From an uncultured Clostridia bacterium (GTDB lineage Bacteria; Bacillota; Clostridia; Oscillospirales; Oscillospiraceae), in assembly GCA_947572235.1 (NCBI GenBank), contig CANPBB010000010.1, positions 1 through 41,177 on the forward strand: DNA of 41,177 nucleotides, in the 5' to 3' direction. Made by a program: the position numbers and the translations under genes. The number at the start of each line of letters is the position of its first letter. The first letter of the stretch is position 1. Shown piece by piece: positions 162 to 36,546 of the stretch. Under the pieces are notes generated by a model. It had not been told where the DNA came from. It did no database searches and saw nothing but the letters and a program-made list of their open reading frames with translations.

Positions 162-2369
162 ATGAAACTCACCCGCCTCACCGCCACCTTTGGCGTCCTG
201 AACAACCAAACCCTGACCCTCAGCAGCGGCCTGCACCTCATATACGCCCCCAACGAGAGCGGCAAGACCACATGGTGCGCCTTCCTGCGCTCCATGCTCT
301 ACGGCCTGCCCACCCGGGACCGCCGCCCCGCCGCGGACAAGAACCGGTACGCTCCGTGGTCCGGCGCGGCCATGGAGGGTGCCATTGACCTGACCGCCAA
401 CGGCGAGGCCCTGACCATCCGCCGCCGCACCCGCTCCCCCTCCGCCCCCATGGCCGCCTTCTCCGCCGTCTACACCGGCACCGCCCAGAGCGTCCCCGGC
501 CTGGACAGCCTCAACTGCGGACAGATCCTCACCGGCGTCCCCCGGGAGGTTTACGAGCGCAGCGCCTTCATCTCCCAGAGCGGTATGGTCATCGGCCAGA
601 GCGCCGAGCTGGAGCGCCGGATCACCGCCCTGCTCACCTCCGGCCAGGAGGACGTCTCCTGCACCGAGGCCGCCGAGCAGTTAAAGAAGTATCTCTCCCG
701 CCGCCGCTACAACAAAACCGGCCTCCTCCCCGCCGCGGAGGAGGAGATCGCCGCCTTGGAGCGCCAGCTCTCCCAGAGCCAAGCCCTCCAGCAGCAGCTC
801 ACCGAAGCCGAGGCCGCCCTCCCCCTCTTGGAACAGCAGGAGCGCCGGCTCACCGAGGAAATCCTCCGGCAGGAGCGCCAGGCCGGCGCCCGGCAGCGCC
901 AACAGGCCGACGCGGTCCAGCGCTCCTACGACGCCGCCGTCCTGCGTGCCGCCCTCTGCCGGGAGGAGACCGCCGGCCTCCCCCCGCGAAGCGAGCTGGC
1001 CGCCCTGAAATCCGCCGCCGGCAGCGTCCAGATGAACCGCCTCACCGCCGACAGCCTCCGGCGCCGCTTGGAGCAGCGCCAGCGGGACACCGCCGCCGCC
1101 CAAGCGGAGGCCGACGCCTTCCCCCTCTTCGCCGGCCTCACCGCCGAGGAGGCGCAGGCCAAGGCGGAGAGCGACCAGCAGACCCGCCGCGCCCTCCAGC
1201 GGCAGAGGAAACTATCCCGGCCCCTGTTCCTCCTCTCCCTGCTTTTCCTCCTCCTCACCGCCCTGCCCCCGCTCCTCCGCCATCCCCTGCCTCTCCCCCT
1301 GACCGCCGCCGGCACAGCCCTTTTCCTCCTGACCCTCACCATCGGAACCCTCCTCTGCACCCGCGCCCGCCGGCAGCTTCTATCCCTCACCGCCGCCTAC
1401 GGCTCCGGCAGCTTCACCCGCCGTGCCGACGCTTACGCCGCCGCCTACGCGGTCCTCGCCGACTGCCGCCAGCGGGAGCGGGAGGTCCGCCAGCGCACGG
1501 AGAACCTCGCCGCCGCCCTCTCCTCGGCGGAGGACGAGGTGATGGCCGCCGCCCGACGCCTCTCCCCCGCCGCCACCACCCTCACCGAGGCCGCCGCCGC
1601 CATCGACATAGGTCTCGCCCGCTGGAACCGCCTCGCCGAGGCCCAGCAGGACCAGGCCCTGTGGACCGCCCGCCGCAGCGCCCTCTCCGACGCCCCGCCC
1701 CCTGACGATGACCAGCCGGAGGCCCTGCCCCGCCTCCGCGCCCAGCTGGAGGATCTGCGCCGCCAGCTCAGCAACACCCGCCGCGCCCTCTCCGCCGCCC
1801 AGGGCCAGCTCCAGCTCACCGGTTCCCCCGCCGCCTTAGAGGCGGCCTTAGAGGAGAAACGCCGCCGGCGAGATACACTCCAAGGGGAATATGACGCCGC
1901 CCAGTTAGCCTTGGAGGCCCTCTCCGCCGCCAACGCCGCCCTCCAAAGCCGCTTTGCCCCGGCGCTGGGAAAAAAATCTGCAAAATACTTTGCAAAACTC
2001 ACCGCCGGGAAGTATAATACTGTACTGCTGAACCGGGACTTAGCGGCCTCCGTCCAGCAGAGCGGCGCCGCCGCCCCCCGCCCCTTCCGCCAGCTGAGCC
2101 AGGGCGCGGTGGACCAGCTCTACTTGGCGGTGCGCTTGGCCGTCTGCGACTTGGTCCTCCCCGCCCCCCAGTCCGCCCCCCTGATCCTGGACGACGCCCT
2201 GGCCACCTTCGACGACCGCCGCATGGCCGCCGCCTTAGAGGTCCTTTTGGAGCTGTCCCAACGCCGACAAATCCTCCTCTTCACCTGCCACACCCGCGAA
2301 GCCTCCTACCTCCGCCGCGCCCACCCCGCCCAATTCCACGAGCTGACGCTGCCGGAAAACGAGGAATGA
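162..2369 (+). CDS. YhaN/SbcC-like coiled-coil ATPase
   Basis: This 735-residue protein has the split ATPase head of the SbcC/Rad50/YhaN group. The Walker A motif (NESGKTT) is near residues 30-36. The C-terminal signature (LSQGAVDQLYLA) is near 640-660 and a Walker B motif (LILDDALATFDD) near 672-683. Between them lies an Ala/Arg/Gln/Glu-rich coiled coil, interrupted around residues 350-395 by two adjacent hydrophobic segments. Such a membrane hairpin inside the coiled coil is typical of YhaN-type proteins rather than SbcC, so the protein is probably membrane attached. In relatives it is paired with a YhaM/SbcD-type metallophosphoesterase and acts in DNA end processing or repair; that partner would lie left of the window. 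The start is set by GAGGTG six bases upstream. The stop codon falls inside a heptamer repeat. Family assignment is firm; the exact role is inferred. Confidence 0.85.
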   Translation: MKLTRLTATFGVLNNQTLTLSSGLHLIYAPNESGKTTWCAFLRSMLYGLPTRDRRPAADKNRYAPWSGAAMEGAIDLTANGEALTIRRRTRSPSAPMAAFSAVYTGTAQSVPGLDSLNCGQILTGVPREVYERSAFISQSGMVIGQSAELERRITALLTSGQEDVSCTEAAEQLKKYLSRRRYNKTGLLPAAEEEIAALERQLSQSQALQQQLTEAEAALPLLEQQERRLTEEILRQERQAGARQRQQADAVQRSYDAAVLRAALCREETAGLPPRSELAALKSAAGSVQMNRLTADSLRRRLEQRQRDTAAAQAEADAFPLFAGLTAEEAQAKAESDQQTRRALQRQRKLSRPLFLLSLLFLLLTALPPLLRHPLPLPLTAAGTALFLLTLTIGTLLCTRARRQLLSLTAAYGSGSFTRRADAYAAAYAVLADCRQREREVRQRTENLAAALSSAEDEVMAAARRLSPAATTLTEAAAAIDIGLARWNRLAEAQQDQALWTARRSALSDAPPPDDDQPEALPRLRAQLEDLRRQLSNTRRALSAAQGQLQLTGSPAALEAALEEKRRRRDTLQGEYDAAQLALEALSAANAALQSRFAPALGKKSAKYFAKLTAGKYNTVLLNRDLAASVQQSGAAAPRPFRQLSQGAVDQLYLAVRLAVCDLVLPAPQSAPLILDDALATFDDRRMAAALEVLLELSQRRQILLFTCHTREASYLRRAHPAQFHELTLPENEE

Positions 2370-2453
2370 GGAATGGCGGTATCCGCCTGCGGCGAATGAA
2401 TGCCAAACCGTCCCGCCGCCCCCTTTCACTCCTAACTCCTAACTCCTAATTTA
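2361..2453. repeat. Heptamer-hairpin intercistronic element, copy 1
   Basis: The element begins with two GAGGAAT heptamers (2361-2374) that encode the last residues and TGA stop of the upstream gene. A GC-rich core with GGCGGTATCCGCC and CCTGCGGCG follows. It ends with TCACTCC, TAACTCC, TAACTCC and TAATTTA heptamers on the opposite strand sense. It fills the whole gap up to the next ribosome binding site. Related copies are listed separately. Confidence 0.75.
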
Positions 2454-2475
2454 CCCCCCCTTTGGAGGTGCCCCC

Positions 2476-3408
2476 ATGCCCCCTCAACTGCTAAGCCGCC
2501 TCACCGCCCTTGCGGGCTGGTTTCTCCTCTTCATTCTCTACAGCTTCATCGGCTGGTGTGGGGAGACTGTCTACTGCTCCATCGGCCAGCGCAAGCTCTG
2601 CGAGAAGCGGGGCTTTCTCAACGGTTTCCTCTGCCCCATCTACGGCCACGGCGCCCTTCTGGTCCTCTGCGCCCTCCGCGGCGGCTGCGCCAGCCCCGTC
2701 CTCACCTTCCTCTTCGGCCTGCTCCTCACCAGTGCCGTGGAGTACGTCACCAGCTGCGTCATGGAGCGCCTGTTCCACATGCGCTGGTGGGACTACTCCC
2801 ACTACCGCTTCCAGCTGAACGGCCGGGTCTGCCTGCTCAACTCCACCCTCTTTGGCCTGGCCTGCGTCTTTCTCTGCCACTACGCCCACCCCCGGGCCAT
2901 GGTTTTGATCAACGCCATGATCCGCCGCGGCTCGGCCATCCCTCTGGCCCTCCTCATCTTTGTCGTCTACGCCGTTGACATCGTCATCTCCGTCCGCAGT
3001 GCCATCCAGATCGGCAGCCGCCTGGAGAAGCTCCACGCCCTCCAGGAGGAGCTCCAGCACAAGCTGGAGGAGCTGAAGGCCGAGCAGCTGCGGACCATGG
3101 CGGAGCACCTGAACCACCTGGAGGAGGCGGTGGAGAACCGCATGGAGGCCCACGAGGCCCAGCGGGAGGCCCGGAAGGCCCGGGCCATGGAACGCCTGCA
3201 GGCCCGCGTGGACTCCCTGGACCAGTGGGGAGAGGCATACCTGCGTCGCTGGGAGCAGCTGAAATCCGACTTCCAGCGCCGCTCCCGCCAGCTGATGGAG
3301 GCACAGGACTATTTTGAGCGCCGTCTGATGCTGGCGCACCCCACGCTGCGCTCGGCCAAACACAGTGAAGCCCTCCAGAGGCTCCGCGAATTTATCAAGA
3401 ACCGGTAA
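2476..3408 (+). CDS. PF06541-type integral membrane protein with coiled-coil tail
   Basis: The first ~180 residues carry about five hydrophobic segments and the conserved layout of the 'putative ABC-transporter type IV' family (PF06541, CmpB-like): FIGWCGE near residue 22, then GF-NG-LCPIYG, a central EY-TS segment, and WWDYS followed by N-GR-CL near 105-125. The C-terminal ~120 residues are soluble, charged and strongly coiled-coil (Leu/Glu/Gln/Ala-rich), longer than the minimal family. Function in this family is not established; a role as a membrane permease-like or scaffold protein is only a name-based guess. GGAGGTG lies 7 bases before the ATG. It follows the YhaN-like gene and probably shares its transcript across the heptamer element. 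Confidence 0.75.
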   Translation: MPPQLLSRLTALAGWFLLFILYSFIGWCGETVYCSIGQRKLCEKRGFLNGFLCPIYGHGALLVLCALRGGCASPVLTFLFGLLLTSAVEYVTSCVMERLFHMRWWDYSHYRFQLNGRVCLLNSTLFGLACVFLCHYAHPRAMVLINAMIRRGSAIPLALLIFVVYAVDIVISVRSAIQIGSRLEKLHALQEELQHKLEELKAEQLRTMAEHLNHLEEAVENRMEAHEAQREARKARAMERLQARVDSLDQWGEAYLRRWEQLKSDFQRRSRQLMEAQDYFERRLMLAHPTLRSAKHSEALQRLREFIKNR

Positions 3409-3604
3409 ATCCTGTTTTGTATGCCGGCGCGGGGGGATACATACTATATTATTGGAGTACGCTCTCTGCCGCCGATGGTTGTTTCGGCGGCGCAGGCGCT
3501 TTCGCTCCCCTCCCATCGCGCCGGACAAGGCCGTGTACTGCGCCGCGGCGCCCCCATTAAAAGACAATTCAATTTAATTTTTATGGTAAAGGAGAATAAA
3601 ACCC

Positions 3605-4420
3605 ATGAGCGAATGCACACATGACTGCTCCACCTGCGGGGAATCCTGCGGTGAGCGCACCGAGCCTCAGTCCTTCCTGAAGGCCCCCAACGCCGCCGCC
3701 CGGATCGGCAAGGTCTACGGCGTGGTCTCCGGCAAGGGGGGCGTGGGAAAATCCATGGTCACCAGCCAGCTGGCCGTCCTCACCCGCCGTCTGGGCCACA
3801 AGGTGGGCGTTCTGGACGCCGACGTCACCGGCCCCTCCATCCCCAAGGCCTTCGGCGTCCACCAGCGGGCCATGGGCGACGAGCGGGGCATGCTCCCCGC
3901 CGTCACCAAAACCGGCATCGAGCTGATCAGCGTCAACCTCCTCCTGGACGACGAGACCGACCCCGTGATCTGGCGGGGCCCCGTCATCGGCGGCGTTGTC
4001 ACCCAGTTCTGGACCGACGTGGTCTGGGACGTAGACTACCTCTACGTGGATATGCCCCCCGGCACCGGCGACGTGTCCCTCAGCGTCTTCCAGTCCATCC
4101 CCTTGGACGGCATCATCGTCGTGGCCAGCCCGCAGGAGCTGGTGAGCATGGTGGTGGAGAAGGCGGTGAAGATGGCGGAGATGATGAACGTCCCCATTGT
4201 GGGCCTGGTGGAAAATATGTCCTACCTCCGCTGCCCCGACTGCGGCAAGGAGATCCCCCTCTTCGGCGAGGGCAAAACCCTGTCCGCCGCCCAAGCCCAC
4301 GGCCTCCCCCTCTTGGCCCGGATGCCCATCGACCCCTCCCTGGCGGCTTTAGCAGATTCTGGAAATATCGAGGACTTCACCGGCGATTGGCTCACCGGCG
4401 TGGTGAAGACCCTCCTCTGA
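3605..4420 (+). CDS. Mrp/NBP35-family Fe-S cluster carrier ATPase
   Basis: This 271-residue P-loop protein carries the deviant Walker A motif SGKGGVGKS near residues 41-49, typical of Mrp/ApbC/NBP35/MinD-fold proteins. Further family marks are DADVTGPS (about 71-78), DMPPGTGD (about 149-156) and a CPDC pair near 205-208, the bridging cluster site in the dimer. The N-terminus has an extra cysteine cluster (C-x3-C-x2-C-x3-C in the first 15 residues), as in Nbp35. It is expected to assemble and transfer 4Fe-4S clusters to apoproteins in the cytosol. AAAGGAG precedes the ATG by about 10 bases. The neighbours do not add to the assignment. Confidence 0.92.
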   Translation: MSECTHDCSTCGESCGERTEPQSFLKAPNAAARIGKVYGVVSGKGGVGKSMVTSQLAVLTRRLGHKVGVLDADVTGPSIPKAFGVHQRAMGDERGMLPAVTKTGIELISVNLLLDDETDPVIWRGPVIGGVVTQFWTDVVWDVDYLYVDMPPGTGDVSLSVFQSIPLDGIIVVASPQELVSMVVEKAVKMAEMMNVPIVGLVENMSYLRCPDCGKEIPLFGEGKTLSAAQAHGLPLLARMPIDPSLAALADSGNIEDFTGDWLTGVVKTLL

Positions 4421-4725
4421 CCCCTCCCCGGCCCGGTCCGCCGCCCCTGTAGGCACGTTTCGGTGCAACACACCCCCTCAAAAACGGTGTTTTTTGCGCA
4501 AAAAGGCCCCAAAAGCGCGGTTTTTTACCGCTTATTTTCGGCCCCCACCCTGTCATTTTCTAACTTTTCGCCCCCTTTACAGCACACCGCCGAGGCCTCC
4601 ACCCTCCCCTGCCGCCGAGGCTCTCCCCCTCTTTTGGGCCGCGATTTCAGCAAGCCCACCCGCCCTCCGGCCTCCGGCATCCCCTCAATAAACCAGCATT
4701 AGAACCACAATAAAGAGGTGTTTTT
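4421..4725. other. Spacer after mrp with a weak hairpin
   Basis: This ~305-base gap is C-rich on the given strand and holds no supported gene. A five-base-pair hairpin (GCGGT/ACCGC at 4517-4531, T loop) followed by TTATTTT may be a weak terminator for mrp. The start of the next gene is fixed by AGAGGTG just before 4726. Confidence 0.4.
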
Positions 4726-5748
4726 ATGAAAAAATCCTTTCTTATGATCCTATTTCTTCTGGTTTTAACCTCCTGCGCCCAGCAGCCGAAGGACCCGGAG
4801 AAGTATATCGGCATCGAGGCAGCCAAGGCGGCGGCCTTAGCCGACGCCGCCCTCCCCGCGGACGCCCCCGCCGACTTCTCCACCACCGGCTTGGACCGGG
4901 CCAACGGAGAGGATTTCTACGCCGTCAATTTCACCGCTGATGGCGTCTCCTACCAGTACGAAATCCACCCTGTCACCGGCGCTGTCATCCGTTCCAATAG
5001 CCAAGGCCCTCGTCTCATAGGGGATGAGGCCGCCCAAGAGATAGCGCTCCAGCACGCCGGCCTCACCGCCGATCAGGTCACTGTCCTCTCCATCGAGCAG
5101 GACATCGAGAACGGCCGGCAGGTCTACGACGTGGAATTTTACACCGCGGACCATAAGGAGTACGACTACAATATTGACGCCATCACCGGTGAGGTGGTCA
5201 GCTACGACTACGACATAGAGCGCCCCCTCCCCACCGATGATACGCGCCCCGAGACCCCCGACACCGGCACAGCCCCCAACACCCCCGTCCTTGGCACAGA
5301 CAGCCCCATCGGCGAGGAGGTAGCCAAGGCCGTAGCCCTCAAGCACGCCGGCCTTACCGCCGACGCCGTCACCTTCCTCCCCACGGAGCTGGATTGGGAG
5401 AACGGCCGGCAGGTCTACGACATTGAGTTCTACACCGCGGACCGGAAGGAGTACGACTACGAAATCGACGCCGCCACCGGCGAGATCGTCAGCTTCGACT
5501 ACGACGCGGAGCACGCCCTGCCCCAGAACACCGTCAGCTCCCCCATCACAGCGGATCAAGCCCGGAGCATCGCCTTGGCCAAGGTCCCCGGCGCCTCCTC
5601 CGGCGACATTTGGGATTTTGAGTCGGATTACGACGATGGCCGTCTGAAGTATGAGATTGAAATCCGGTACAACGGCATGGAGTACGACTTTGAAATCGAC
5701 GGCACCAACGGCACTATTCTGGAGATGGACTCAGAGCCGATTTCCTGA
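4726..5748 (+). CDS. PepSY-repeat lipoprotein
   Basis: The 340-residue product begins with a lipoprotein signal peptide (hydrophobic stretch, lipobox LTSC with Cys17), so it should be anchored to the outer face of the membrane. After it come four PepSY-like repeats, at about residues 26-88, 100-165, 190-255 and 270-335. Each has an acidic 'A-x2-IAL-x-HAGL' helix followed by a two-strand hairpin with Y-[DE]-[VI]-[EN]-F and Y-[DEQ]-[YF]-[END]-I-D. Repeats 2 and 3 are nearly identical, so internal duplication was recent. PepSY domains are associated with inhibition or chaperoning of secreted peptidases; here that is an inference. The convergent neighbour encodes a membrane peptidase of family M56, with a shared terminator between them. 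Confidence 0.85.
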   Translation: MKKSFLMILFLLVLTSCAQQPKDPEKYIGIEAAKAAALADAALPADAPADFSTTGLDRANGEDFYAVNFTADGVSYQYEIHPVTGAVIRSNSQGPRLIGDEAAQEIALQHAGLTADQVTVLSIEQDIENGRQVYDVEFYTADHKEYDYNIDAITGEVVSYDYDIERPLPTDDTRPETPDTGTAPNTPVLGTDSPIGEEVAKAVALKHAGLTADAVTFLPTELDWENGRQVYDIEFYTADRKEYDYEIDAATGEIVSFDYDAEHALPQNTVSSPITADQARSIALAKVPGASSGDIWDFESDYDDGRLKYEIEIRYNGMEYDFEIDGTNGTILEMDSEPIS

Positions 5749-6046: not shown

Positions 6047-6120
6047 TCAAATCCATCCAAATCCGTCCGGCGAAGCCGGACACCACAACTCCTCATTCCT
6101 AAACTCCTACTTCCTAACTC
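6047..6120. repeat. Heptamer-hairpin element, copy 2
   Basis: A palindromic core (CGTCCGGC-GAA-GCCGGAC) is followed by CACCACAACTCC and then ATTCC/ACTCC heptamers up to 6120. Read on the minus strand, the heptamers overlap the end of the M56 gene and supply its TAG stop. The core is nearly identical to that of the copy at 35763-35889. Confidence 0.75.
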
Positions 6121-9653: not shown

Positions 9654-10045
9654 CACTTCTCCTCCTCTCTCTCCAGCTCGTCGAGGAAGCGGCGCAGGTC
9701 GCTCAGCTCCTCTTTTCCGATAGCCCTCCCCCGGTACAGCGCCGCCACAAGGGCGGGGAAGGAGTTGCCGTAGAGCCGCTGGAGGAAACCCCGGCTCTCG
9801 AACTCCCGGTAGGCCTCCTCGCTGACCGCCGGGGCGTACCAATTCCCCCGGCCACGCCGCTCGCAGGTGAGAAAGCCCTTCTCCACCAGACGGTTCAGCG
9901 CCGTCAGCACCGCCGGCAGCGGCCAGTCCCGCCGGGAGCGCAGCGCCTGCTGGATGTAGGGGGACTGCACCGGTTCCCCGGCCCGCCACACCGCCTGCAT
10001 GATCTCCAGCTCCGCATCCCCTAAATGCTTCAGCTCCTGTGCCAT
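9653..10045 (-). CDS. blaI: BlaI/MecI-family transcriptional repressor
   Basis: A 130-residue winged-helix repressor: the LGDAELEIMQAVW start, a recognition helix near residues 40-60 (LPAVLTALNRLVEKG) and a C-terminal dimerisation segment with a FLQRLYGNSFPALVAAL pattern. BlaI proteins bind TACA-x2-TGTA dyads as dimers and are inactivated by cleavage after the partner M56 sensor is activated. GGGGGAGGAAG precedes the ATG. Two operators lie directly upstream (10072-10112), so the operon represses itself. The partner gene follows with overlapping stop and start. What genes other than this operon are controlled is not visible here. Confidence 0.92.
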   Translation of the reverse strand: MAQELKHLGDAELEIMQAVWRAGEPVQSPYIQQALRSRRDWPLPAVLTALNRLVEKGFLTCERRGRGNWYAPAVSEEAYREFESRGFLQRLYGNSFPALVAALYRGRAIGKEELSDLRRFLDELEREEEK

Positions 10046-11168: not shown

Positions 11169-11455
11169 GGGGGACGGGTGGTTTATTGGAGGGTTTCGGG
11201 GGATGGGAGACGGCGCGCCGGGAACGCGCGCCCTACGGGGTGGGGTGACGGGGGCCTGCGAGGAATCCCTCCACCGCCATGCGGCGGTCCCCCTCATCTC
11301 GGCCTAAGAGCCGCCCTTTGGGGCGGTTGGCCTCGAAACGCGCCTGCGGGCGCAGCCTTTAGCAAGGGAGGCAAGGCGCGAAGCGCCGCAGCCGTTTGGT
11401 TCGGTGCGGTGGGTGTCGGTGGGGCGGGCGCACAGCGTGCGCCCCTACGGAGGTT
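11169..11455. repeat. Composite intergenic repeat, copy 1
   Basis: Module order: a G-rich lead (GGGGGACGGGTGG), GGCGCGCCGG...CGCGCCCTAC, GGAATCCCTCCACCG with GCGGCGGTCCCCC, an AGGCAAGGCGCGAAGCGCC module, and GGGCGCACAGCGTGCGCCCC. The same order recurs at 40801-41000, and the first module recurs at 21687-21775. It contains no supported gene. The last module is of a dispersed palindromic type seen in many gut Firmicutes. Confidence 0.75.
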
Positions 11456-11471: not shown

Positions 11472-11744
11472 GTGTCGATAGATTAAGCGCACTGCCAAAG
11501 TGCGTTGCCGCCAAGCACGGCGGCCTTTGCCGCATCGGGCCAGCGCAACAACCATCAAGTTTCGGGGGCAAGTCGCGGCGAGGTTGGCAGAGCGGCAGCG
11601 GCGGTTTATCGTATGGCCAAAGACGGGGGGACGCTCTCAGGATACCTTCTGCCATGCGAGAACTACCGCCGCCGCGTGGGGGCGGCAAGGTTGGATGAAA
11701 GTCGGGCTGTCGAGGGGGCGTTGCGTCTTGGGGTTCTTAGGGGG
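11472..11744. repeat. Conserved ~270-bp non-coding element, copy A
   Basis: This stretch aligns end to end with 14112-14376. Both begin GTGTCGATAG and end GGTTCTTAGGGGG. Shared blocks in the same order include GCCTTTGCCGCA, CCAGCGCAAC, ATCAAGTTTCGG, CGCGGCGAGGT, AGAGCGGCAG, AAAGACGG and ACCGCCGCCG. The reading frames are not conserved between copies, so a non-coding RNA or non-autonomous mobile unit is more likely than a protein. The two copies flank the RNase J gene. Confidence 0.7.
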
Positions 11745-14111: not shown

Positions 14112-14376
14112 GTGTCGATAGGGCAGGTGCGCATACTGACAACACCGGCAAGTACGGCAGCCTTTGCCGCACCGGCCAGCGCAACGACTATCAAGTTTCG
14201 GAGGCAAGCCGCGGCGAGGTGAACAGAGCGGCAGCTTGCCAAAAGACTAAAGACGGAGGTCGCTTTCAGGACATATTCTACTCAGCGAGAACCACCGCCG
14301 CCGAGTTCGAAGCCGCACAGTAAAACTACGCGCCAGTCTACCGAAACAGCGTCGTAGCTTGGAGGTTCTTAGGGGG
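14112..14376. repeat. Conserved ~270-bp non-coding element, copy B
   Basis: Diverged partner of 11472-11744, with the same ends and the same block order. Near the 3' end AGAACC (from 14288) can pair with GGTTCT (14364-14369). In copy A the matching sequence is AGAACT, which still pairs through a G-U wobble. This gives mild support for an RNA structure. The rest of the 13961-14507 spacer shows no gene. Confidence 0.7.
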
Positions 14377-29925: not shown

Positions 29926-30014
29926 TCGCGGCAAAATGTCCGCGCATAATCTTCCTTCTTGCGGTACAGTGGTCCTGCAAGGCAAATAAAGGCAGGACAC
30001 GGAGGACCGCCCTC

Positions 30015-31817
30015 CTATTCATCCAGCTTCAGCACCGCCATAAACGCCTCCGTCGGCAGCTGCACCGTCCCCAGATTCCGCATCTTTTTCTTGCCCTCCT
30101 TCTGCTTCTCCAGCAGCTTCTTCTTCCGGGTAATATCGCCGCCGTAGCACTTGGCCAGCACGTCCTTGCGCATGGCCTTCACCGTTTCCCGAGCAATGAT
30201 CCGTCCGCCGATGGCCGCTTGGATGGGCACCTCGAAGAGTTGGCGGGGGATGTTGTCCTTCAGCTTCTCGCACAGCCGCCGGGCCCGGGGGTACGCCTTA
30301 TCCCGATGGGCGATGAAGCTCAGGGCATCCACCTGATCCCCGTTTAAGAGCAAATCCACCTTCACCAAGTCGCTGGAGCGGTAGTCGGACAGCTCATAGT
30401 CCAAGGACGCATAGCCCTTGGTGTGGGCCTTCAAGGTATCAAAAAAGTCGTAGATGATCTCATTCAAGGGCATCTGGTAGTGGAGCTCCACCAAGTTGGT
30501 GTCCAGGTACTGCATATCCTTGAACTCCCCCCGGCGCTCCTGACACAGGGGCATGATGTTCCCCACATACTCATTGGGCGTCAAAATCGACACCTTCACA
30601 AAGGGCTCCTCCGCCTCGGCGATGGACGCCGGGTCCGGGTAGTTGTGGGGGTTGTCTACGTTCACCACCGTGCCGTCGGTCTTGGTGACCTTGTAAATCA
30701 CCGAGGGCAGCGTGGTCACCAAATCCAAATCGAACTCCCGCTCCAACCGCTCTTGGATAACCTCGCTGTGGAGCATCCCCAAAAAGCCGCACCGGAAGCC
30801 AAAGCCCAGGGCCACGGAGCTCTCCGGCTCGAAGGTCAGCGACGCATCGTTGAGCTGGAGCTTCTCCAGGGCCTCCCGCAGATCCGGGTATTTGCTGCCG
30901 TCCTCGGTGTACACGCCGCAGTAGACCATGGCCTGTGCCTTCCGATAGCCGGGCAGGGCTTCTGCCGCCGGCTCCTCTGTGCCGGTGACAGTATCGCCCA
31001 CCTCGGTGTCCCGGACGTTTTTGATGGAGGCGGTGAGATATCCCACCTGCCCCGCCGTCAGGGTGTCACAGGGCTCGTACCCCAAGGGCCGCAGCAGGCC
31101 GCACTCCAAGATCTGGTACTGGGCGCCGGAGGCCATCATCTTGATGCTCATGCCCCTCCTCACCGTGCCCTCCATGATGCGGAAGTACACGATGACCCCC
31201 TTGTAGGCGTCGTAGTAGCTGTCGAAGATCAGCGCCCGCAGGGGGGCGTTGGGATCGCCGGCGGGAGCGGGGACGTTCCGCACCACATCCTCCAGCACCG
31301 CAGGGATGTTGATCCCCATCTTGGCGGAGATCTCCGGGGCCTCCATGGCCGGCAGGGCCAAGATGTCCTCAATCTCGTGCTTCACCCGCTCCGGGTCGGC
31401 GGCGGGCAGGTCAATCTTATTCACCACCGGACGGATCTCCAGATCGTTGTCCATAGCTAAATAGGTGTTGGCCAAAGTCTGAGCCTCGATGCCCTGACTG
31501 GCGTCCACCACCAGCACCGCCCCCTCACAGGCGGCGAGGGAACGGCTGACCTCGTAGTTAAAATCCACATGGCCCGGCGTATCAATCAGGTTCAGGGTGT
31601 AGACCTCCCCGTCCTCAGCGGTGTAATCAAACGTCACCGCCCGGGCCTTAATCGTGATCCCCCGCTCCCTCTCCAAGTCCATATTGTCCAGGAGCTGGGA
31701 CTCCATATCCCGCTCCGCCACTGCCCCGCAGGCCTCCAGAAGCCGATCCGCCAAGGTGGACTTCCCATGGTCGATGTGCGCGATAATGCTGAAATTCCGA
31801 ATGTTTTCCTGTTTCAT
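30015..31817 (-). CDS. lepA: Elongation factor 4
   Basis: The 600-residue GTPase has G1 AHIDHGKST (about 12-20), the switch region [15 protein letters not shown]3 DTPGHVDF and G4 NKIDLP. The LepA-specific C-terminal domain is also present ([21 protein letters not shown]-like block and basic [13 protein letters not shown] stretch). EF4 back-translocates or remodels stalled ribosomes. ATG 31817 is chosen because GAGGTG lies 5 bases upstream; the longer frame to 31889 runs through the heptamer element. It follows the XRE regulator gene and shares its strand. Confidence 0.97.
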
Positions 31818-31828
31818 AAACACCTCTG

Positions 31829-31912
31829 TATCAGTTAGGAGCGAATCAGACAAATGACTCCATATCCATTCGCCGCAGGCAAATCCCACAATTCCTGACT
31901 CCTAATTTTTCC
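31829..31912. repeat. Heptamer-hairpin element, copy 3
   Basis: Read on the minus strand it starts TTAGGAGTCAGGAATTG, has a CCTGCGGCGAATGG core like copy 1, and ends with CTCCTAACTGA next to the lepA RBS. The first TAG is the stop codon of the XRE gene. It fills the gap between the two genes. Confidence 0.7.
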
Positions 31913-32594
31913 GAAATGCCGCCATCTTCTGTATCCTCTCCCCCGTGGTGTGGATCACTTGATAGAGGGACTGGTAGGCGCCGGGGTAGGCCGCCGACAA
32001 TGACTCCCGATCCATGGGGGGCACCGCCCCCTTCTCCTTCATGTGGGCGGCTAAGGCGTCGGAGAAGTCCGCCTCGGCAAAGATCATGTCGGAGGTGACC
32101 ACCCCCACATTGAAGTGGTTGGAGGTAATGTTGAACATATCCTCGTTGGCGTCAGGGGAGATCAGGTAGAGCCGGCGGAAGATCCGGTAGATCCCGTCCC
32201 CGATGTAGGCCGCCGCCGCCATCACCGCCTCCCGGCTGCCCACCTTGCCGAGGAGCGCGAAGAGCACGCTGATGGAGTTCACCAGCAGCTTCTTTTGCAA
32301 GGTGGCCATAATGCTGCCCTGCATGGACCCGGCCCGCTCCTCGCTGGCGTCGTACAGCGCTTCGGTACCAATGTTGATGCCGTCCCGGTCCGGGGAGCGG
32401 CCCAGCATGAAGTCGGCGGAGACATGGTAGTAGTCGCAGGCCCGCACCACAAAGTTGAGCCCCGGCTCCCGCACGCCCTTCTCATAGTGGCTCAGCAGCG
32501 CCTGACTAATCCCCAGCTCCGCGGCCACCTTCCGCTGGCTGAGCCCCCGCTCCTGCCGCAGCAGGCACAGGGTCCGTGAAAAGTCCTCTCTCAT
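31902..32594 (-). CDS. XRE-family regulator with C-terminal domain
   Basis: The 230-residue protein has an N-terminal Cro/C1 HTH (about 8-62): LRQERGLSQRKVAAELGISQ, ALLSHYEKGVREPG, then DYYHVSADFMLG. The C-terminal ~150 residues are mostly helical and not recognised. ATG 32594 is preceded by AAGGAGAA. A promoter and a TGTATAT/ATATACA dyad lie just upstream, so autoregulation is likely. Its stop codon is inside a heptamer repeat and lepA follows. Confidence 0.85.
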   Translation of the reverse strand: MREDFSRTLCLLRQERGLSQRKVAAELGISQALLSHYEKGVREPGLNFVVRACDYYHVSADFMLGRSPDRDGINIGTEALYDASEERAGSMQGSIMATLQKKLLVNSISVLFALLGKVGSREAVMAAAAYIGDGIYRIFRRLYLISPDANEDMFNITSNHFNVGVVTSDMIFAEADFSDALAAHMKEKGAVPPMDRESLSAAYPGAYQSLYQVIHTTGERIQKMAAFRKN

Positions 32595-32628
32595 AGCGGA
32601 TGTTCTCCTTGTCTGTGTAAATACGAGA

Positions 32629-32662
32629 TGTATATTATATATTAAGATATACACTTTGTAAA
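32629..32662 (-). promoter_or_regulatory. Promoter and dyad of the XRE gene
   Basis: On the minus strand TTTACA (32662-32657), a 17-base spacer and TATAAT (32639-32634). A TGTATAT...ATATACA inverted repeat (32629-32635 and 32647-32653) overlaps the -10 and spacer and is a candidate self-operator. Confidence 0.75.
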
Positions 32663-32773
32663 GGGATTTCGTGCAAAAAGTTTGCCCTGTATCCCCAAAA
32701 ATCCTCTGTACCCAGACTGTCTGCCCATTCCTGCGGGGCAAATCACCCGCGAAAATCGGTCAGCCCGCTGCTG

Positions 32774-32962
32774 CTATACGGAGGAGACTGTCCGTGTTTT
32801 GCTTTTATCATGGGTAAAAGTGTGTGTGATGCAACCGCCGTCTGTGACCAAGGCCACGCTGTAGATGCGCTCCCTTTCGCTCTCCCGGCGGATCTTCTCC
32901 ATCGCCTGCCGCACCATCCCCACTTCTTTTGCCGAGCGGATCTGAGCAGAGTATACCATCAT
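32774..32962 (-). other. Possible short reading frame in the spacer
   Basis: A 62-codon minus-strand frame has a coding-like middle (AMEKIRRESERERIYSVALV and onward) but no ribosome binding site at its ATG. I do not recognise it. It may be a small gene or a gene remnant. The rest of 32663-33145 holds two GC-rich hairpins (near 33018-33042 and 33092-33113) and nothing else clear. Confidence 0.3.
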
Positions 32963-33145
32963 AGCAAGCAGCTTTCAACCCTCCGTTATAGGTACTGATT
33001 CTATAAGAGCAAAAGGGGATCGGACAGGGCAGCCCCTGTCCGCGAAAGCGAACTGCCGCGCGTGCGGCGTCACAAGCGTTTTGCCGCATGGCGCTGGGGC
33101 GTCACTCGCCCCAAGCATGTCAAATCAAGCCACAGGCGTCCACAA

Positions 33146-33187
33146 GGAAATAAAAGCGACAGGCCATGGCCAGTCGCTTTTATTTCC
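33146..33187. terminator. Long near-perfect palindrome, probable terminator of the tRNA unit
   Basis: GGAAATAAAAGCGAC and its complement frame GGCC-AT-GGCC, giving about 19 pairs with one A-A mismatch. It has T-rich arms on both strands. It lies at the end of the tRNA-tail array. Confidence 0.7.
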
Positions 33188-33191
33188 TTTC

Positions 33192-33537
33192 GAGCGGGCG
33201 ACGGGGCTCGAACCCGCTACGGGCATCCCACGAATGGCACGCCATTCGCGGGAACCCTGCCCGACCTCCTATTTGACGCGCCTTCGGCGCAGGTGGAGGC
33301 AGCGGGTTCGCTTCCTGCGGAAAGAAAAATAGGACACCCAATCTTGGATGTCCTATTACAGATGGAGCGGGCGACGGGGCTCGAACCCGCTACGGGCATC
33401 CCACGAATGGCACGCCATTCGCGGGAACCCTGCCCGACCTCCTATTTGACGCGCCTTCGGCGCAGGTGGAGGCAGCGGGTTCGCTTCCTGCGGAAAGAAA
33501 AATAGGACACCCAATCTTGGATGTCCTATTACAGATG
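33192..33537. repeat. Two perfect 173-bp tandem copies of the tRNA-Gly tail plus terminator
   Basis: Positions 33192-33364 and 33365-33537 are identical. Each unit starts with the last ~29 bases of tRNA-Gly (T arm and acceptor strand, antisense in this numbering), then a unique segment with CGAATGGC/GCCATTCG and GCGCC/GGCGC palindromes. It ends with the terminator hairpin that also follows the real tRNA. No integrase gene is nearby. Reading frames across this region are spurious. Confidence 0.92.
33498..33530 (-). terminator. Terminator of tRNA-Gly
   Basis: On the minus strand AATAGGACA pairs with TGTCCTATT around a partly paired loop and ends in TTTTT, directly after the tRNA 3' end. An identical copy lies 173 bases further (33325-33357). 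Confidence 0.85.
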
Positions 33538-33611
33538 GAGCGGGCGACGGGGCTCGAACCCGCTACCTCCACCTTGGCAAGGTGGCGCTCTACCAGATGA
33601 GCTACGCCCGC
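33536..33611 (-). tRNA. tRNA-Gly (GCC)
   Basis: The 76-base cloverleaf reads GCGGGCGTAGCTCATCTGG at its 5' end. The anticodon loop is CTTGCCAAG, anticodon GCC. The T arm is GCGGGTTCGAGCCCCGT, and the 7-base-pair acceptor stem is intact with encoded CCA. Its 3' part is copied twice downstream. Confidence 0.97.
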
Positions 33612-33622
33612 GGAACGTTGAT

Positions 33623-33651
33623 AGTATACCAAATTCTTTGCCCCATGTCAA
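33623..33651 (-). promoter_or_regulatory. Promoter of tRNA-Gly
   Basis: On the minus strand TTGACA (33651-33646), a 17-base spacer and TATACT (33628-33623) place the transcript start a few bases before the tRNA. Confidence 0.9.
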
Positions 33652-33670
33652 CCTCTATTTTCAAAGCGAA

Positions 33671-33698
33671 TTGACAAAATCTCACAGAGGGCTATAAT
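33671..33698 (+). promoter_or_regulatory. Promoter of the MBL-fold hydrolase gene
   Basis: TTGACA (33671-33676), a 16-base spacer and TATAAT (33693-33698), about 70 bases before the start codon and divergent from the tRNA promoter. Confidence 0.88.
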
Positions 33699-33767
33699 AA
33701 AGAACAACCGCAGGCGGGAACCGCCCCAATCGGCCAGCCACCCCCCACTAAGAAAGCGAGGCGCCCC

Positions 33768-34529
33768 ATGAACCCTTGGTTCACCATCGACCCCATTGAC
33801 CGCCGCACCCACTGCATCAGCGAATACCGCCACTGGGAGGAGACCCACTGCTACCTCCTCACCGGCGAAACACGCAGTCTGCTGATCGACACAGGCTTAG
33901 GCATCTGCAACATCCTCGACTCTGTCACCGCCCTCACCGACAAGCATGTCACCGCCGTGGCCACCCACGTCCACTGGGATCACATCGGCGGTCATCAATA
34001 CTTTCCGGACTTCTGCGCCCACGCCGCGGAGCTCCCTTGGCTGCAAGGGGAATTCCCCCTGCCCGAGGACGCTGTGCGGAGGATGGCTGCCGACCGGTGC
34101 CAGCTGCCGGAGGGTTTTAAGCTCGACGCCTACACCATATTCCAAGGCACTCCCTCCCGTCTCTTGGAGGACGGGGATCTCATTGACTTAGGCGGCCGCA
34201 CCCTCCAGGTTCTCCACACACCGGGGCACTCCCCGGGGCATCTGTGCTTCTATGAGGACGCCACCAGCTATCTCTTTACCGGGGACTTAGTCTACAAGGG
34301 CACCCTTCTCGCCTACTACCCCTCCACAGATCCGGAGGCCTACCTCGCCTCCTTGGAGAAGCTGGCCGCCCTCCCCGTCCGGCGGGTATTTCCGGGGCAC
34401 CACTCCCTGCATATTTCCCCGGAAATCATCCTCCGTATGCGGGACGCCCTCCGGGAGCTGAAAGCAAAGGGCCTGCTTCACCACGGCAGCGGCGTCTTCC
34501 GCTATGGTGACTGGGCGATCCATCTTTGA
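33768..34529 (+). CDS. MBL-fold metallo-hydrolase
   Basis: The 253-residue protein has the metallo-beta-lactamase metal sites: THVHWDHIGG near residues 66-75, HTPGHSPGH near 145-153, GDLVY near 167 and GHH near 208. The compact size and order fit glyoxalase II-like or quorum-quenching-like hydrolases; the substrate is not evident. GAGGCG precedes the ATG. It is convergent and directly abutting the TfoX_C gene (stop codons at 34527-34529 and 34530-34532). Confidence 0.85.
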   Translation: MNPWFTIDPIDRRTHCISEYRHWEETHCYLLTGETRSLLIDTGLGICNILDSVTALTDKHVTAVATHVHWDHIGGHQYFPDFCAHAAELPWLQGEFPLPEDAVRRMAADRCQLPEGFKLDAYTIFQGTPSRLLEDGDLIDLGGRTLQVLHTPGHSPGHLCFYEDATSYLFTGDLVYKGTLLAYYPSTDPEAYLASLEKLAALPVRRVFPGHHSLHISPEIILRMRDALRELKAKGLLHHGSGVFRYGDWAIHL

Positions 34530-34784
34530 TCACCGGAGCTGGTCGCTGAACCCCTTCAGCTCCCTCTTCACCTCCGCCGGCAGCGCGTTGAAGTCCACCC
34601 CCCGCACCGCCCCCTCCAAGGCATAGAGGTGGACCAGACAGACATGGGGATAGACGCTCTTCAGCCGCAGATAGGCCCCCATGGCCCCGGTCTCCCGCAG
34701 CTGCTCCGGCGAGCTGATCCCCACCGCTTGGAGCTTCCGCGACATCTCCCGCCCAATATTCACCATGGATGTCAAATCCGACAT
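34530..34784 (-). CDS. TfoX C-terminal-domain protein
   Basis: The 84-residue protein matches the TfoX_C domain (PF04994): NIGREMSRKLQAVGI and SPEQLRETGAMGAYLRLKSV, a helix-hairpin-helix-like fold. It lacks the N-terminal TfoX domain of competence regulators. Stand-alone copies are common in Firmicutes and have no known job. GAGGTG precedes the ATG by 7 bases. The 34785-34911 gap shows no gene. Confidence 0.85.
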   Translation of the reverse strand: MSDLTSMVNIGREMSRKLQAVGISSPEQLRETGAMGAYLRLKSVYPHVCLVHLYALEGAVRGVDFNALPAEVKRELKGFSDQLR

Positions 34785-34911
34785 ATAGGCACACCTCTAT
34801 CTATCCATCAAAAAAACGTCCGCACGCCGGCACTTACACCCCCACCGCTGGCCCAATCTGCCGGTCGATGGAACACTTCGCAGACGGGAGCGTCGCTTCC
34901 GCCTGTTCTTT

Positions 34912-35742
34912 TTATGGCAGGGTCACGCCGTCCTCCGGCTGCAAAAATACCTCCACAATACTGCGCTGTCCCTTGGGGGGATAGAAATATACCTCCCAGA
35001 GCACCGGCTTCTCCGGCGGCGGGACGATCTCCCCATCTCCGGTCTCCTCCGTCGGCTCCACCTCGTCCAAGGGATCGCTCTCTCCCGCCTCCGCCGCCTC
35101 GCCAGATTCCCCCTCAGAGGCCTCCCCGCCGTCTGAGACCAACCGGTCAAAGCCCTCCAGCTCCGCTTGGAGCAGCCGAATATTCTCCAGCAGCACCTCC
35201 GGCTCCTCGGAGAGGTAGGAGTACCGCACGGTCAGCCGGGGCACTTCCTCCTCATAGGCCTTGAGCAGCATGTCATAGATGGCGCCGGAGCTGGCGGTCT
35301 CCTGAATGCCGGCCACATCCTCCGCCGTCCGCCGGTACACCGGGCGAAGCTCCGCCTGGTAGTAGCTGTTGCGCAGCTCCTCCATGTCGAAATCCAGACG
35401 CTCCAAGGCGTAGGAGCCGATGGCGGTCTCCTCCCGCACCTCAGTCACCGCCCGTTTCAGCATGGTCAAAGCGGACACATAGTCCACATCGGTAAGGTAC
35501 AGCCGCAGCGTCCCGCTGTCCCGGTGCTCCTCCACCAGCAGCATCAAGGTATTCACCAAGTCCTGATAGGACTCCGCCCGCAGGATATCACTGCCGGCGC
35601 CCTCCTCCCAATACCGGTTGGCGTGGGGCTCCACAGAGCCGTAATCCTGCTCCAAAAGGGAATTACAGCCGGTGAGCAGCAGAAGGAACAGGAGGGCGCC
35701 CCAGAGGAGGCCGAATCTTTGTATGTTAGCTTTTCGATCCAT
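34912..35742 (-). CDS. Lipoprotein of unknown function
   Basis: The 276-residue product has a lipoprotein signal with lipobox LTGC at about Cys26. The body (about 35-195) is helical and acidic with many aromatic residues. An Asp/Glu/Pro-rich linker (about 200-240) leads to a short beta-rich end. I do not recognise a family. It would be attached to the outer membrane face. A GGGGG-type site precedes ATG 35742; the in-frame TTG at 35760 is less likely. It follows the LUD genes on the same strand, separated by heptamer-hairpin element copy 4. Confidence 0.7.
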   Translation of the reverse strand: MDRKANIQRFGLLWGALLFLLLLTGCNSLLEQDYGSVEPHANRYWEEGAGSDILRAESYQDLVNTLMLLVEEHRDSGTLRLYLTDVDYVSALTMLKRAVTEVREETAIGSYALERLDFDMEELRNSYYQAELRPVYRRTAEDVAGIQETASSGAIYDMLLKAYEEEVPRLTVRYSYLSEEPEVLLENIRLLQAELEGFDRLVSDGGEASEGESGEAAEAGESDPLDEVEPTEETGDGEIVPPPEKPVLWEVYFYPPKGQRSIVEVFLQPEDGVTLP

Positions 35743-35762
35743 TGAAACCCCCTTTTTCAACG

Positions 35763-35889
35763 AGGAATTGGGAATGAGGAATTAGGAGTTAGGAATGGTG
35801 GTGTCCGGCTTACGCCGGACGATTTTATTCCCATCACCCCGCCGCAGACAGGATTCCTTCATTCCTAATTCCTCATTCCTAATTTTTCC
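35763..35889. repeat. Heptamer-hairpin element, copy 4
   Basis: The most complete copy: heptamers GAGGAAT/TTAGGAG type on the left (35763-35798), then GGTGGTGTCCGGC-TTAC-GCCGGAC, a spacer, then ATTCCTA/ATTCCTC heptamers (35854-35885). It fills the gap between the stop of the LUD gene (35891) and the RBS of the lipoprotein gene. Confidence 0.85.
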
Positions 35890-35890
35890 C

Positions 35891-36490
35891 TTAGTAGCCC
35901 AGTTCCTCGTCTACTAAGACCACTTCCATCTCCATGGACTTCATCCGCTTGTAGTGCACCACTAAGCCGCGGCAGATGCGCTCGGGGCTGTTGCAGTCAT
36001 AGCAGCGGTCCGCCTTGGCCGCGCAGGGGGTCTTGATCCCCATGCGCCGCGCGTTTTTGGGGGCCACCACGTTGCGCACCCGGTGCAGGGCCGACGCATA
36101 GTCCAAAGACACCTTGTTGCGTCCCGCGACAAAGTAGACCTTCCGGTGGCCAAACAGGGTGGAGGCCGCCCGGTTGCCCACGCCGTCGATGCTGATGATC
36201 TCCCCGGTGCTCTCGGCAATGCCGTTGGCGGAGAGGAGATAGACCTCCGTACTCATAGCCGCCCGCCGCGCCGCCTCCACATCCTCACTGCGCCGGTGGT
36301 AGATCAGCGTATTGTGGGACGCCAGAGAGTCGTAGAGCCCCAGCTCCTCCAGCGTCATAGAGACGCCGCAGCCCACCGCCGTGCCATCAATCACCCGATT
36401 GAGATACGCCGCCGCCTCCGCCCCCGTGGCGCAGACGGTGACGGTGAAGCCATTGCGCTCCAATACTCTTTGCAGATTTGTAAAATCCAT
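35891..36490 (-). CDS. LUD-domain protein, paralog 1
   Basis: The 199-residue protein belongs to the LUD (lactate utilisation, PF02589) family. It has the GCGVSMTLEELGLY block near 40-53, LLSANGIAESTGEI near 84-97 and VGNRAASTLFGHRKVYFVAGRNK near 102-124. The C-terminal part has a cysteine cluster (CAAKADRCYDCNSPERIC, about 156-173) that may bind a metal or Fe-S cluster. LutC-type partners LutA and LutB are absent, so a link to lactate is only by family name. The adjacent upstream gene encodes a close paralog of the same length. A GGGGG site precedes the ATG. Confidence 0.85.
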   Translation of the reverse strand: MDFTNLQRVLERNGFTVTVCATGAEAAAYLNRVIDGTAVGCGVSMTLEELGLYDSLASHNTLIYHRRSEDVEAARRAAMSTEVYLLSANGIAESTGEIISIDGVGNRAASTLFGHRKVYFVAGRNKVSLDYASALHRVRNVVAPKNARRMGIKTPCAAKADRCYDCNSPERICRGLVVHYKRMKSMEMEVVLVDEELGY

Positions 36491-36507
36491 AAAGGCCCCC
36501 TTTTTGT

Positions 36508-36546
36508 CAGGAGTGAGGAGTTGCGGGATCCATTCACTTCTAACCC
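36508..36546. repeat. Heptamer element, short copy 5
   Basis: AGGAGTGAGGAGTTGCGGGATCC-type sequence followed by ATTCACTTCTAACCC lies between the two LUD genes. It matches the arms of the other copies but has a shortened core without a strong hairpin. Confidence 0.6.

Follow-up and report, generated by a model that had tools for sequence, protein, structure and literature searches.

Heptamer-armed palindromes in the stop-to-start spacers of an Oscillospiraceae genome look like old selfish DNA insertions

The window, a 41,177-nt stretch of contig CANPBB010000010.1 from an Oscillospiraceae MAG (G000), carries five copies and one partial copy of an element built on tandem heptamers, lying beside genes that are named here by their Pfam families (Table 1). 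Heptamer arrays were present wherever an earlier note on this DNA had placed them, and above chance, with the exact AGGARTNAGGARTNAGGA pattern at 26 places in the genome and a reversed-pattern control at none. The same control was not clean in genomes G188 (90 against 235) or G379 (62 against 171). The earlier note had also put the stop codons of the YhaN-like, M56, and XRE genes inside heptamers and the two LUD stops within ten bases, and had described the element as filling the stop-to-RBS gap in four co-directional pairs; both statements hold, with spacers of 106, 84, 148, and 57 nt in those pairs. Its idea of a single complete plan common to every copy does not, as E2 is a single half-unit, E5 is reduced, and 124-147 is one array. 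A core flanked by two arms occurs only in the copies at 2361, 31829, and 35763.

Table 1. Copies of the heptamer element in the window
Copy	Positions	Strand	Structure	Surroundings	Upstream stop codon
E1	2361-2453	+	Two heptamers, GC core, three inverted heptamers	Spacer between YhaN-like AAA gene (162-2369) and PF06541 gene (2476-3408); gap filled	In-frame TGA (2367-2369) within heptamer
E2	6047-6120	-	Single half-unit; heptamers 6088-6116; hairpin GTCCGGC/GCCGGAC	Convergent spacer, not co-directional	TAG of M56 gene (6114-6116) within heptamer
E3	31829-31912	-		Fills 84-nt spacer from XRE-type HTH gene (31902-32594) to lepA (30015-31817)	TAG (31902-31904) within heptamer
E4	35763-35889	-	Most complete copy; heptamer arms flank two hairpins	LUD gene (35891-36490) and next gene (34912-35742) on either side	LUD stop at native place; first heptamer begins a few bases after
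E5	36508-36546	-	Reduced copy	57-nt spacer separating two tandem LUD genes	
Partial copy	124-147	-	One heptamer array (right arm)	Upstream of gene 162-2369, ~12 nt from its start; close to end of contig	

Across the 745,618 of 2,626,772 bases examined in G000, we defined 114 elements, each comprising one or two facing half-units, and 41 of these were two-sided. The half-unit consists of tandem heptamers (ARTKAGG), a hairpin (GTGTCC..GGAC), and then GATTTGAAT, and the core GTGTCC..GGACGATTTGAAT is common to scores of copies. We counted 148 half-units at E ≤ 1 among 150 candidates scored; over the 745,618 bases, the count at E ≤ 0.1 was 167. Forty facing half-unit pairs span 75-262 nt, with length peaks near 105 and 180.

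Placement relative to genes was then scored against calls from our own simple gene finder. Though ~83% of the sequence is coding, 105 of the 114 elements have under half their length within a called gene, and the other 9 have at least half. Co-directional spacers hold 86 of 103 classifiable elements, with 9 in divergent and 8 in convergent spacers, compared with 216 of 317 element-free spacers that are co-directional (Fisher p 0.0024). Within the co-directional set, 58 of 86 elements lie ≤25 nt from the stop. The two-armed co-directional copies (n = 37) have a median gap of -2 to the upstream stop and 21 to the downstream start, and 28 of them begin ≤10 nt from the stop, a share that averaged 0.51 and reached at most 0.68 in 2000 trials of a sliding null. 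Some copies sit in the last codons of the upstream gene (E1, and position 2304 of stretch L077), and RBS-like sequence is present downstream of the element in the spacers displayed. Given the number of copies, their mainly intergenic position, and the co-directional and stop-side bias, neither outcome that would have counted against the earlier note, random placement or a mere handful of copies, was seen. Two-armed copies begin at the upstream stop at the median, and that stop does not always belong to the element: at E4, the LUD stop is native and the first heptamer follows a few bases later.

The arrays supply stop codons, as had been proposed, in a minority of cases. Of 63 genes that end in an array, 20 have their stop within a tandem unit by a strict test, versus 8 of 596 others, and a looser test raises the count to 30 of 63; elsewhere, as at LUD, the native stop is kept. 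TAG serves as the stop in 29 of the 63 array-ending genes versus 147 of the 596 others (p 5e-4). Among 21 arrays with at least three exact units, only 10 have a stop in each of the three frames (shuffles 0.15). No sign of selection for sense-arm stops was seen, the base before AGGA being no more stop-prone in sense arms (T33 G11 C9 A0) than in antisense arms (T38 G21 C5 A2). We rejected a stop codon kept in every relative's unit, because AACGAAR and AATGCAR have none.

Ten congeners were compared, with 137 candidates scored per genome. At E ≤ 1e-6, there were 90 half-units in G000, 54 in the sister species G010, and 0 in the nine other congeners, and, G010 apart, the congeners examined showed no element at corresponding junctions. 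At the cobalamin gene pair 4897|5082 of L077, G000 has an element, and the genes overlap (-4 or -1) in all eight congeners with data. Pairs 3 and 5 of the same stretch were left out as overlap evidence owing to unclear congener starts or spacers. Such a comparison offers a before-and-after view of how a repeat comes to part overlapping genes, with neither gene visibly lost. Junction 9751|9905 of L077 is 153 nt and element-free in both G000 and G010, whereas seven congeners have -1 to 5 nt there; spacers of this lineage have thus widened by other means too. Between the sister species, length differs by >15 nt in 22 of 37 comparable elements versus 8 of 51 element-free spacers counted by an identical rule (p 3e-5). 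Every comparable G010 element has a G000 counterpart (36/36), in a sample where fresh G010 insertions could be missed because the G000 stretches were picked around G000 elements. Lone heptamer-like traces occur in G010 at some sites of G000 elements. One clean filled/empty pair was found, at L099:650-756, where the G000 element follows one base after a native TAA; no target-site duplication is visible at this, the one clean empty site. The empty site could alternatively represent a deletion in G010.

Beyond these species, the heptamer array, and not the core, matches plasmid-borne arrays in cyanobacteria and in other phyla. Plasmids of Nostoc, Dolichospermum, and Kovacikia carry TTAGGAG-type tandem heptamers, the match being confined to the array portion (17-19% of the query), and in Sulfurovum, an array begins at the annotated TAG stop of a gene. 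G188 and G379 have similar inverted arrays with unrelated interiors. Environmental contigs (27-68% GC) yielded 20 facing array pairs, 1 reverse pair, and 3 same-strand pairs within 300 nt. Core-pattern matches in Desulfobacteraceae and Bacteroidetes contigs (L181 and L183) were taken as chance, since a 1177-aa ORF encloses L181 and no arrays are visible at either stretch.

A search for a mobilizing enzyme covered the same 745,618 bases, in which seven facing pairs span 250-5000 nt and no transposase was found between their arms; five enclose ordinary genes and two enclose none. Matches to PF01797 (Y1/RAYT) were obtained in 12 of 21 genomes searched, and none in G010 or G188. A RAYT/IS200 link was rejected for the 25 inspected of 39 listed PF01797 matches, as no array adjoins them; among the stretches holding these 25 (L198-L216), an array is present in L206 alone, at a distance of ~2 kb from the gene.

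ERIC/IRU, REP/BIME, RUP, and other MITE-like repeats are short, non-coding, palindromic, and intercistronic, with many degraded copies in full and internally deleted sizes. The Clostridia element shares these traits and adds heptamer arms. A distant-mode comparison of E4 with 5,426 E. coli genomes gave no match to ERIC or other E. coli repeats, and, whereas REP/BIME are linked to a RAYT gene, the Y1/RAYT genes examined here do not adjoin the Clostridia arrays. Cyanobacteria also carry tandem heptamers, the STRR repeats, which resemble the element in the array, while the core is without a match. The earlier note called such repeats analogies and not matches; this needs qualifying for the array, though not for the core, given the plasmid matches in cyanobacteria and further phyla and the shared geometry of the Xanthomonas pairs. 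Rehm et al. (2015, PMC4692102) describe (GGGANTN)n in Xanthomonas and (GGGGAYT)n in Nostoc as G-rich tandem heptamers with variable positions. The Xanthomonas repeats are 89-93% intergenic, mainly between aligned ORFs, and form 70 and 75 facing pairs, with the sense-strand array ≤50 bp from the stop (some overlapping it) and the antisense array ≤50 bp from the next ORF; the Nostoc repeats form few inverted pairs (PMC4692102). The Clostridia element shares with these repeats the tandem heptamers, intergenic position, aligned ORFs, stop-hugging, and inverted pairs. It differs in its host, in its conserved hairpin core and GATTTGAAT between the arms, in the overlapping gene pair that congeners show at an element site, and in its unit, since ARTKAGG has only GG and therefore none of the three-G tracts that give the Rehm repeats (at least three G per unit) G4 potential. 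TAACTGA heptamers of Beggiatoaceae (MacGregor 2015, PMC4679880, to which the Thiomargarita paper PMC4853749 points) are, in the parts of that account used here, intergenic and patchy across phyla, with stops in all three frames and, if mobile, survival mainly at ORF ends. They are mostly single forward arrays just before the start codon, apparently replacing the SD, with one inverted repeat only, and the abstract finds no evident transfer mechanism (PMC4679880). The Clostridia element has a different unit, a median of 21 nt to the downstream start with RBS-like sequence retained in the displayed spacers, and a shared core, which those parts of MacGregor 2015 do not describe. No description of the Clostridia element was found in the open-access literature searched.

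Collectively, the elements look like old selfish DNA insertions whose plan is related to repeats of other bacteria. We consider it somewhat probable that they are a non-coding, MITE-like selfish interspersed palindrome of Oscillospiraceae and relatives, surviving in the tolerated stop-to-Shine-Dalgarno slot with the help of stop-bearing arms. The element would have multiplied before the G000/G010 species split by loosely targeted or random insertion, and the survivors would be those just upstream of a Shine-Dalgarno sequence, where a co-transcribed gene is in its last codons or has just reached its stop. TAG or TGA is present in most heptamers, and a period of 7 would shift the frame by one per unit, so that translation of an interrupted gene would usually stop after a few codons. 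The RBS and start of the next gene would remain downstream of the element. Insertion would cost least at stop and last-codon sites because the upstream frame closes quickly and the next RBS and start stay downstream, and an array at both ends would let either orientation work. We infer mobility from this older expansion only. Of the earlier proposal of a mobile unit targeting stop codons, the mobile-like part is supported by amplification specific to this lineage at a junction where the genes of congeners overlap. Targeting is not, since last-codon and divergent copies occur.

A mobile unit truly specific for stop codons or stop-SD junctions is the least credible of the alternatives, and we regard it as very unlikely. 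The L099 insert one base after a native TAA, E4 directly after the native LUD stop, and the Sulfurovum array starting at its TAG would suit it. It is opposed by the copies in last codons, in divergent and convergent spacers, and at least half inside genes, and by the missing target duplication at L099; selection alone could give the stop-side pattern, explaining the bias equally well. Nor do we find it likely that no transposition took place and that replication slippage, with template switching, built up the palindromes on site from Shine-Dalgarno-like AGGAG near stop-start junctions. AGGAG does lie within the unit, and the arrays with unrelated interiors in G188 and G379, the facing environmental arrays, the lone traces in G010, and the one junction widened without an element are consistent with such growth, but slippage does not create a specific core found in scores of copies and common to other genera.

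A functional intercistronic RNA module, in which the palindrome sets processing, stability, or attenuation in the operon and is kept by selection, is a better candidate, though still an improbable one. For the attenuation or processing role raised earlier, positive evidence was limited to the folding of some copies. Against 200 shuffles each, E4 gave z -7.7, E1 z -2.7, and E3 z -1.9; the L099 copy gave z -7.75, and both it and E4 fold end to end. The hairpin stem is paired in 84.1% of cells, with 10 cells changed on both sides, neither value being reached in 500 shuffles, and occurs as GTCCGGC, GTCCAGC, GTCCCGC, TGTCGCC, and TGCCGCC (the test used detected a hairpin in 87 of 205 half-units). 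Co-directional bias, the G000 counterparts of all comparable G010 elements (given the sampling), and the more frequent starts and stops of Xanthomonas transcripts at G4-forming than at control repeats also fit such a module. However, E2 (z -0.3) and E5 (z +0.35) fold no better than shuffles, and two other covariation measures lie within shuffles (330/500 for pairs with both sides changed and 189/500 for further pair types). RNAalifold found only three pairs in the half-unit alignment, the seven-pair hairpin then being counted directly, so the half-unit model (R1) is mostly a sequence model. Rfam covariance models returned only a tRNA at the gathering threshold in the window, with nothing on the elements, and no match at E ≤ 1 in L077 2200-7300. 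A scan of 30000-41177 gave no gene-sense intrinsic terminator at E3-E5, its only in-element match (35802-35821) being antisense to the genes. The many length changes between sister species and the absence of the element at matching junctions in the congeners examined except G010 argue against the module as well.

Returning to selfish insertion, we tentatively raise a wider possibility: that mobile palindromes with "self-sealing" ends form a widespread class. Their arrays would consist of 7- or 8-base units, which are not a multiple of three long and usually include a stop codon, and would allow the element to insert at overlapping operon gene ends in either orientation. The upstream frame would be closed and the ribosome site downstream preserved, and the genes would be pried apart. 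The hairpin core would be the conserved mobile signal, and the unit would drift and be homogenized genome by genome. This would give a testable reason for arrays of non-multiple-of-three units recurring at stop codons in unrelated phyla, and a core that stays conserved while the repeat units are exchanged offers a way to look for the enzyme responsible for heptamer repeats. Other Clostridia have the core with different 7- or 8-base repeat units, and there the upstream ORF stop lies inside the array in 4 of 13 cases.

The genome from which the window derives (G000) is a MAG of 2.63 Mb in 156 contigs, of which the window is contig C10, and its host is placed in the Oscillospiraceae, Clostridia. 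Heptamer arrays were present at all six positions at which the earlier note had described them. The stops that it had read inside heptamers, the TGA of the YhaN-like gene and the TAGs of the M56 and XRE genes, were verified, and the LUD gene stops do lie within 10 bases of heptamers. The common plan ascribed to these copies, two heptamer arms facing each other around a hairpin core, held at three of the six places and failed at the other three. Compared with shuffled sequence, folding was far stronger at 35763-35889 and moderately stronger for the copies starting at 2361 and 31829, while that of 6047-6120 and 36508-36546 did not exceed shuffles.

Heptamer copies and other repeated features in the window
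Position	Feature	Context
124-147	lone heptamer array	
2361-2453	two-armed copy with core	
6047-6120	one half-unit	convergent spacer
11356-11413 and 40928-40985	~60-nt dispersed repeat, 89-90% alike	without heptamer arrays
11538-11599 and 14174-14235	~60-nt dispersed repeat, 89-90% alike	without heptamer arrays
31829-31912	two-armed copy with core	
33192-33566	perfect 173-nt tandem repeat, 2.2 copies	3' part of tRNA-Gly recurs within
33536-33611	tRNA-Gly, minus strand	only complete one at the 173-nt repeat
35763-35889	two-armed copy with core	
35891-37147	tandem LUD-domain gene pair (87% alike across 300 nt)	
36508-36546	reduced copy	between the two tandem LUD genes
41041-41177	40-nt tandem repeat, 3.4 copies	extends off contig end

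The exact pattern AGGARTNAGGARTNAGGA matched 26 times in G000 and never in the reversed control. The aligned half-unit runs from (ARTKAGG)n through TGAATGTGTCCGGC, a short loop and GCCGGAC to GATTTGAAT. In its seven-pair stem, 84.1% of cells were paired, where shuffles gave 77.4% and sliding the stem gave 26-41%, and 10 cells had changed on both sides against 3.1 in shuffles; pairs with two-sided changes (2) and pair types (7) were not above shuffles, in counts to which rows carrying another stem type contribute poor alignments. A covariance model recovered at least 148 half-units at E ≤ 1 from the whole of G000 (150 candidates scored) and 167 at E ≤ 0.1 in 745,618 bases of it. From the best 150 of those 167, together with near-exact arrays, 114 elements were defined in the G000 stretches, 41 of them two-sided. 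Forty facing pairs no more than 300 nt apart ranged in span from 75 to 262 nt, their lengths peaking around 105 and 178 nt.

Genes were called with a simple in-house gene finder (coding fraction 0.83), and only 9 of the 114 elements lay at least half within a called gene. Among the remainder, 103 had both neighbors called, and these sat between co-directional (86), divergent (9) or convergent (8) genes; the 317 element-free spacers of at least 40 nt in the same stretches, a local rather than genome-wide control from stretches picked around elements, divided into 216, 58 and 43, respectively (Fisher p = 0.0024 for the co-directional excess). Median gaps for the 86 co-directional elements were 3 nt to the upstream stop and 29.5 nt to the downstream start. 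For the 37 two-armed ones they were -2 and 21 nt, negative gaps being due in part to model ends reaching into flanks, and 28 of these 37 started no farther than 10 nt from the stop; random sliding within their own spacers gave a mean fraction of 0.51.

Stop codons fell within a near-perfect tandem unit in 20 of 63 array-ending genes and 8 of 596 others (30 and 52 under a looser rule), and the stop was TAG in 29 of the former and 147 of the latter. TTAGGAR and TGAGGAR units each hold a stop, and with a length of seven each further unit moves the frame by one. Of 21 arrays with at least three exact units, only 10 contained stops in every frame (0.15 in shuffles), and 9 did so on the complementary strand; a three-frame stop argument was already made for TAACTGA repeats by MacGregor 2015 (PMC4679880). 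The stop-making base was not enriched in the sense arm. Stop supply is therefore a helpful property of the arms rather than a demonstrated object of selection.

Model matches at E ≤ 1e-6 were found in 4 of 40 genomes, namely G000 (90), its sister species G010 (54), G011 (2) and G014 (1), and nine other congeners gave none at this threshold (137 candidates scored per genome). In the cobalamin operon of G000 (L077), the 184-nt spacer of gene pair 4897|5082 is the element itself, with a TAG stop inside a heptamer; G010 carries a shorter version of 119 nt, and the genes overlap (-4 or -1) in all eight congeners with data (G001-G005 and G007-G009; G006 gave no match). Pair 2326|2522 overlaps in four of six congeners and is 30 and 37 nt apart in the other two. 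In the window, the LUD gene preceding 35763-35889 stops at its native place, followed by a gap of 148 nt, compared with 128 nt in G010 and -8 to 49 nt at nine loci of eight congeners, for which the start was extrapolated. The stop of the YhaN-like gene lies in heptamer sequence, some three codons beyond that of its G009 and G007 counterparts. The XRE-lepA spacer measures 84 nt in the window, 93 nt in G010 and 26 to 434 nt in five congeners, where no heptamers were seen. One junction of the cobalamin operon counts against a simple element-insertion story: 9751|9905 (spacer 9752-9904) is 153 nt wide with no heptamer element in both G000 and G010, and -1 to 5 nt in seven congeners, so spacers in the same operon also grew by another route. 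As the matched congener loci gave a single LUD match each and the G010 match spans both genes, the LUD duplication may be a feature of the lineage of G000 and G010.

We then compared elements with G010, where 37 of the 114 had both flanks in G010 stretches. Scored by one length-change rule, 22 of these 37 elements and 8 of 51 element-free spacers showed length differences above 15 nt (p = 3e-5); 17 elements were shorter in G010 by at least 40 nt, and 2 were longer by more than 15 nt. G010 has 44 elements, 36 of them within G000 stretches, and by length difference and alignments G000 lacked the whole element at none of the 36, though stretches of both genomes were picked around elements, which biases towards shared sites. 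Since the G000 stretches make up ~28% of the genome yet cover this many G010 sites, we infer that most sites are common and older than the split. The sole clean empty site is L099:650-756, where the G000 insert lies one base past the native TAA with no visible duplication; this could be a G000 insertion or a clean G010 loss. Some orthologous copies have a different hairpin type altogether (GTCGCC versus GTCCAGC at the right end of L077 6992-7194 and 2304-2495), and such differences suggest exchange between element copies.

We lean slightly towards reading the element as an old selfish palindrome that would persist at sites of least harm. A function in mRNA is possible, but a needed role is disfavored by the length decay, by weak folding in some copies, by a scan of part of the sequence that showed no terminator in the sense orientation and by the absence of the element from the congener junctions examined. 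Growth of the arrays in place through slippage explains the arrays seen elsewhere whose interiors are unrelated; it leaves the common core unexplained, and we regard it as improbable. As for the selfish palindrome, no moving enzyme was found: no transposase was found between the arms in the 745,618 bases examined, and the 25 of 39 Y1/RAYT matches examined had no array beside them, with one array ~2 kb away. G000 also holds a degenerate Y1_Tnp remnant with two stops (L214, C106:3548-3766) and, on C37, an open IS200-like gene.

The closest published case found is the Xanthomonas heptamers (Rehm 2015, PMC4692102), which are likewise intergenic, stop-hugging, flanked by aligned ORFs and arranged in inverted pairs. 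Since this geometry is common to both, yet the unit, the conserved hairpin core and the hosts differ, the family is a variation on a published heptamer-repeat type, new in those respects and in its before-and-after evidence.

In a search reaching past the genus, 16 of 391 class genomes, G000 included, contained the strict array pattern. Two genomes of another family had 235 and 171 strict matches (reversed controls 90 and 62), with array interiors that differ as judged by eye. The looser (ARTKARN)3 was found in 114 of 291 genomes, mostly with 0-5 matches each, and these low counts may be chance because reversed controls were nonzero in a number of genomes; high counts were 401, 289, 260, 98, 88 and 53, against reversed controls of 17, 7, 0, 0, 21 and 3. 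The Clostridia genome G287 (stretch L217, 30% GC) has 88 such arrays, for example AGTTAACAGTTAACAATTAACAG, with a reversed control of 21. Seventeen named stretches contained the core GTGTCC..GGACGATTTGAATT: three came from G010 and one from G011, two were taken as chance matches, and 11 came from eight other records. Units beside it in other records, read by eye, were ATGAAACT (8 bases), AGTTGAN, AGTGAAN, AACGAAR and AATGCAR, and some core-bearing stretches had no array clear by eye. Of the 22 cores examined, which include one place twice, a co-oriented upstream ORF of at least 80 aa accompanies 13 different ones, and this putative ORF stops within the array in four (L178, L180, L182 and L191).

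Close array pairs in IMG/VR were facing in 20 cases, reverse in 1 and on the same strand in 3, in a sample of 80 of 81 loci preselected for a TTAGGAR array. Plasmid records of Nostoc, Dolichospermum, Kovacikia, Phaeobacter and Sulfurovum carried arrays; that of Sulfurovum, the sole array within the 100 kb of record scanned, has at least nine units starting at the annotated stop of a DNA polymerase III delta gene. A second element query (L137:6950-7200) had no plasmid matches, and one phage record matched ~36 bases at one element end. In genome G188 (L147:7997-8303), inverted heptamer arms surround ~300 nt with an apparent other repeat (CTGTAGGGGCG...), as if one element lay inside another.
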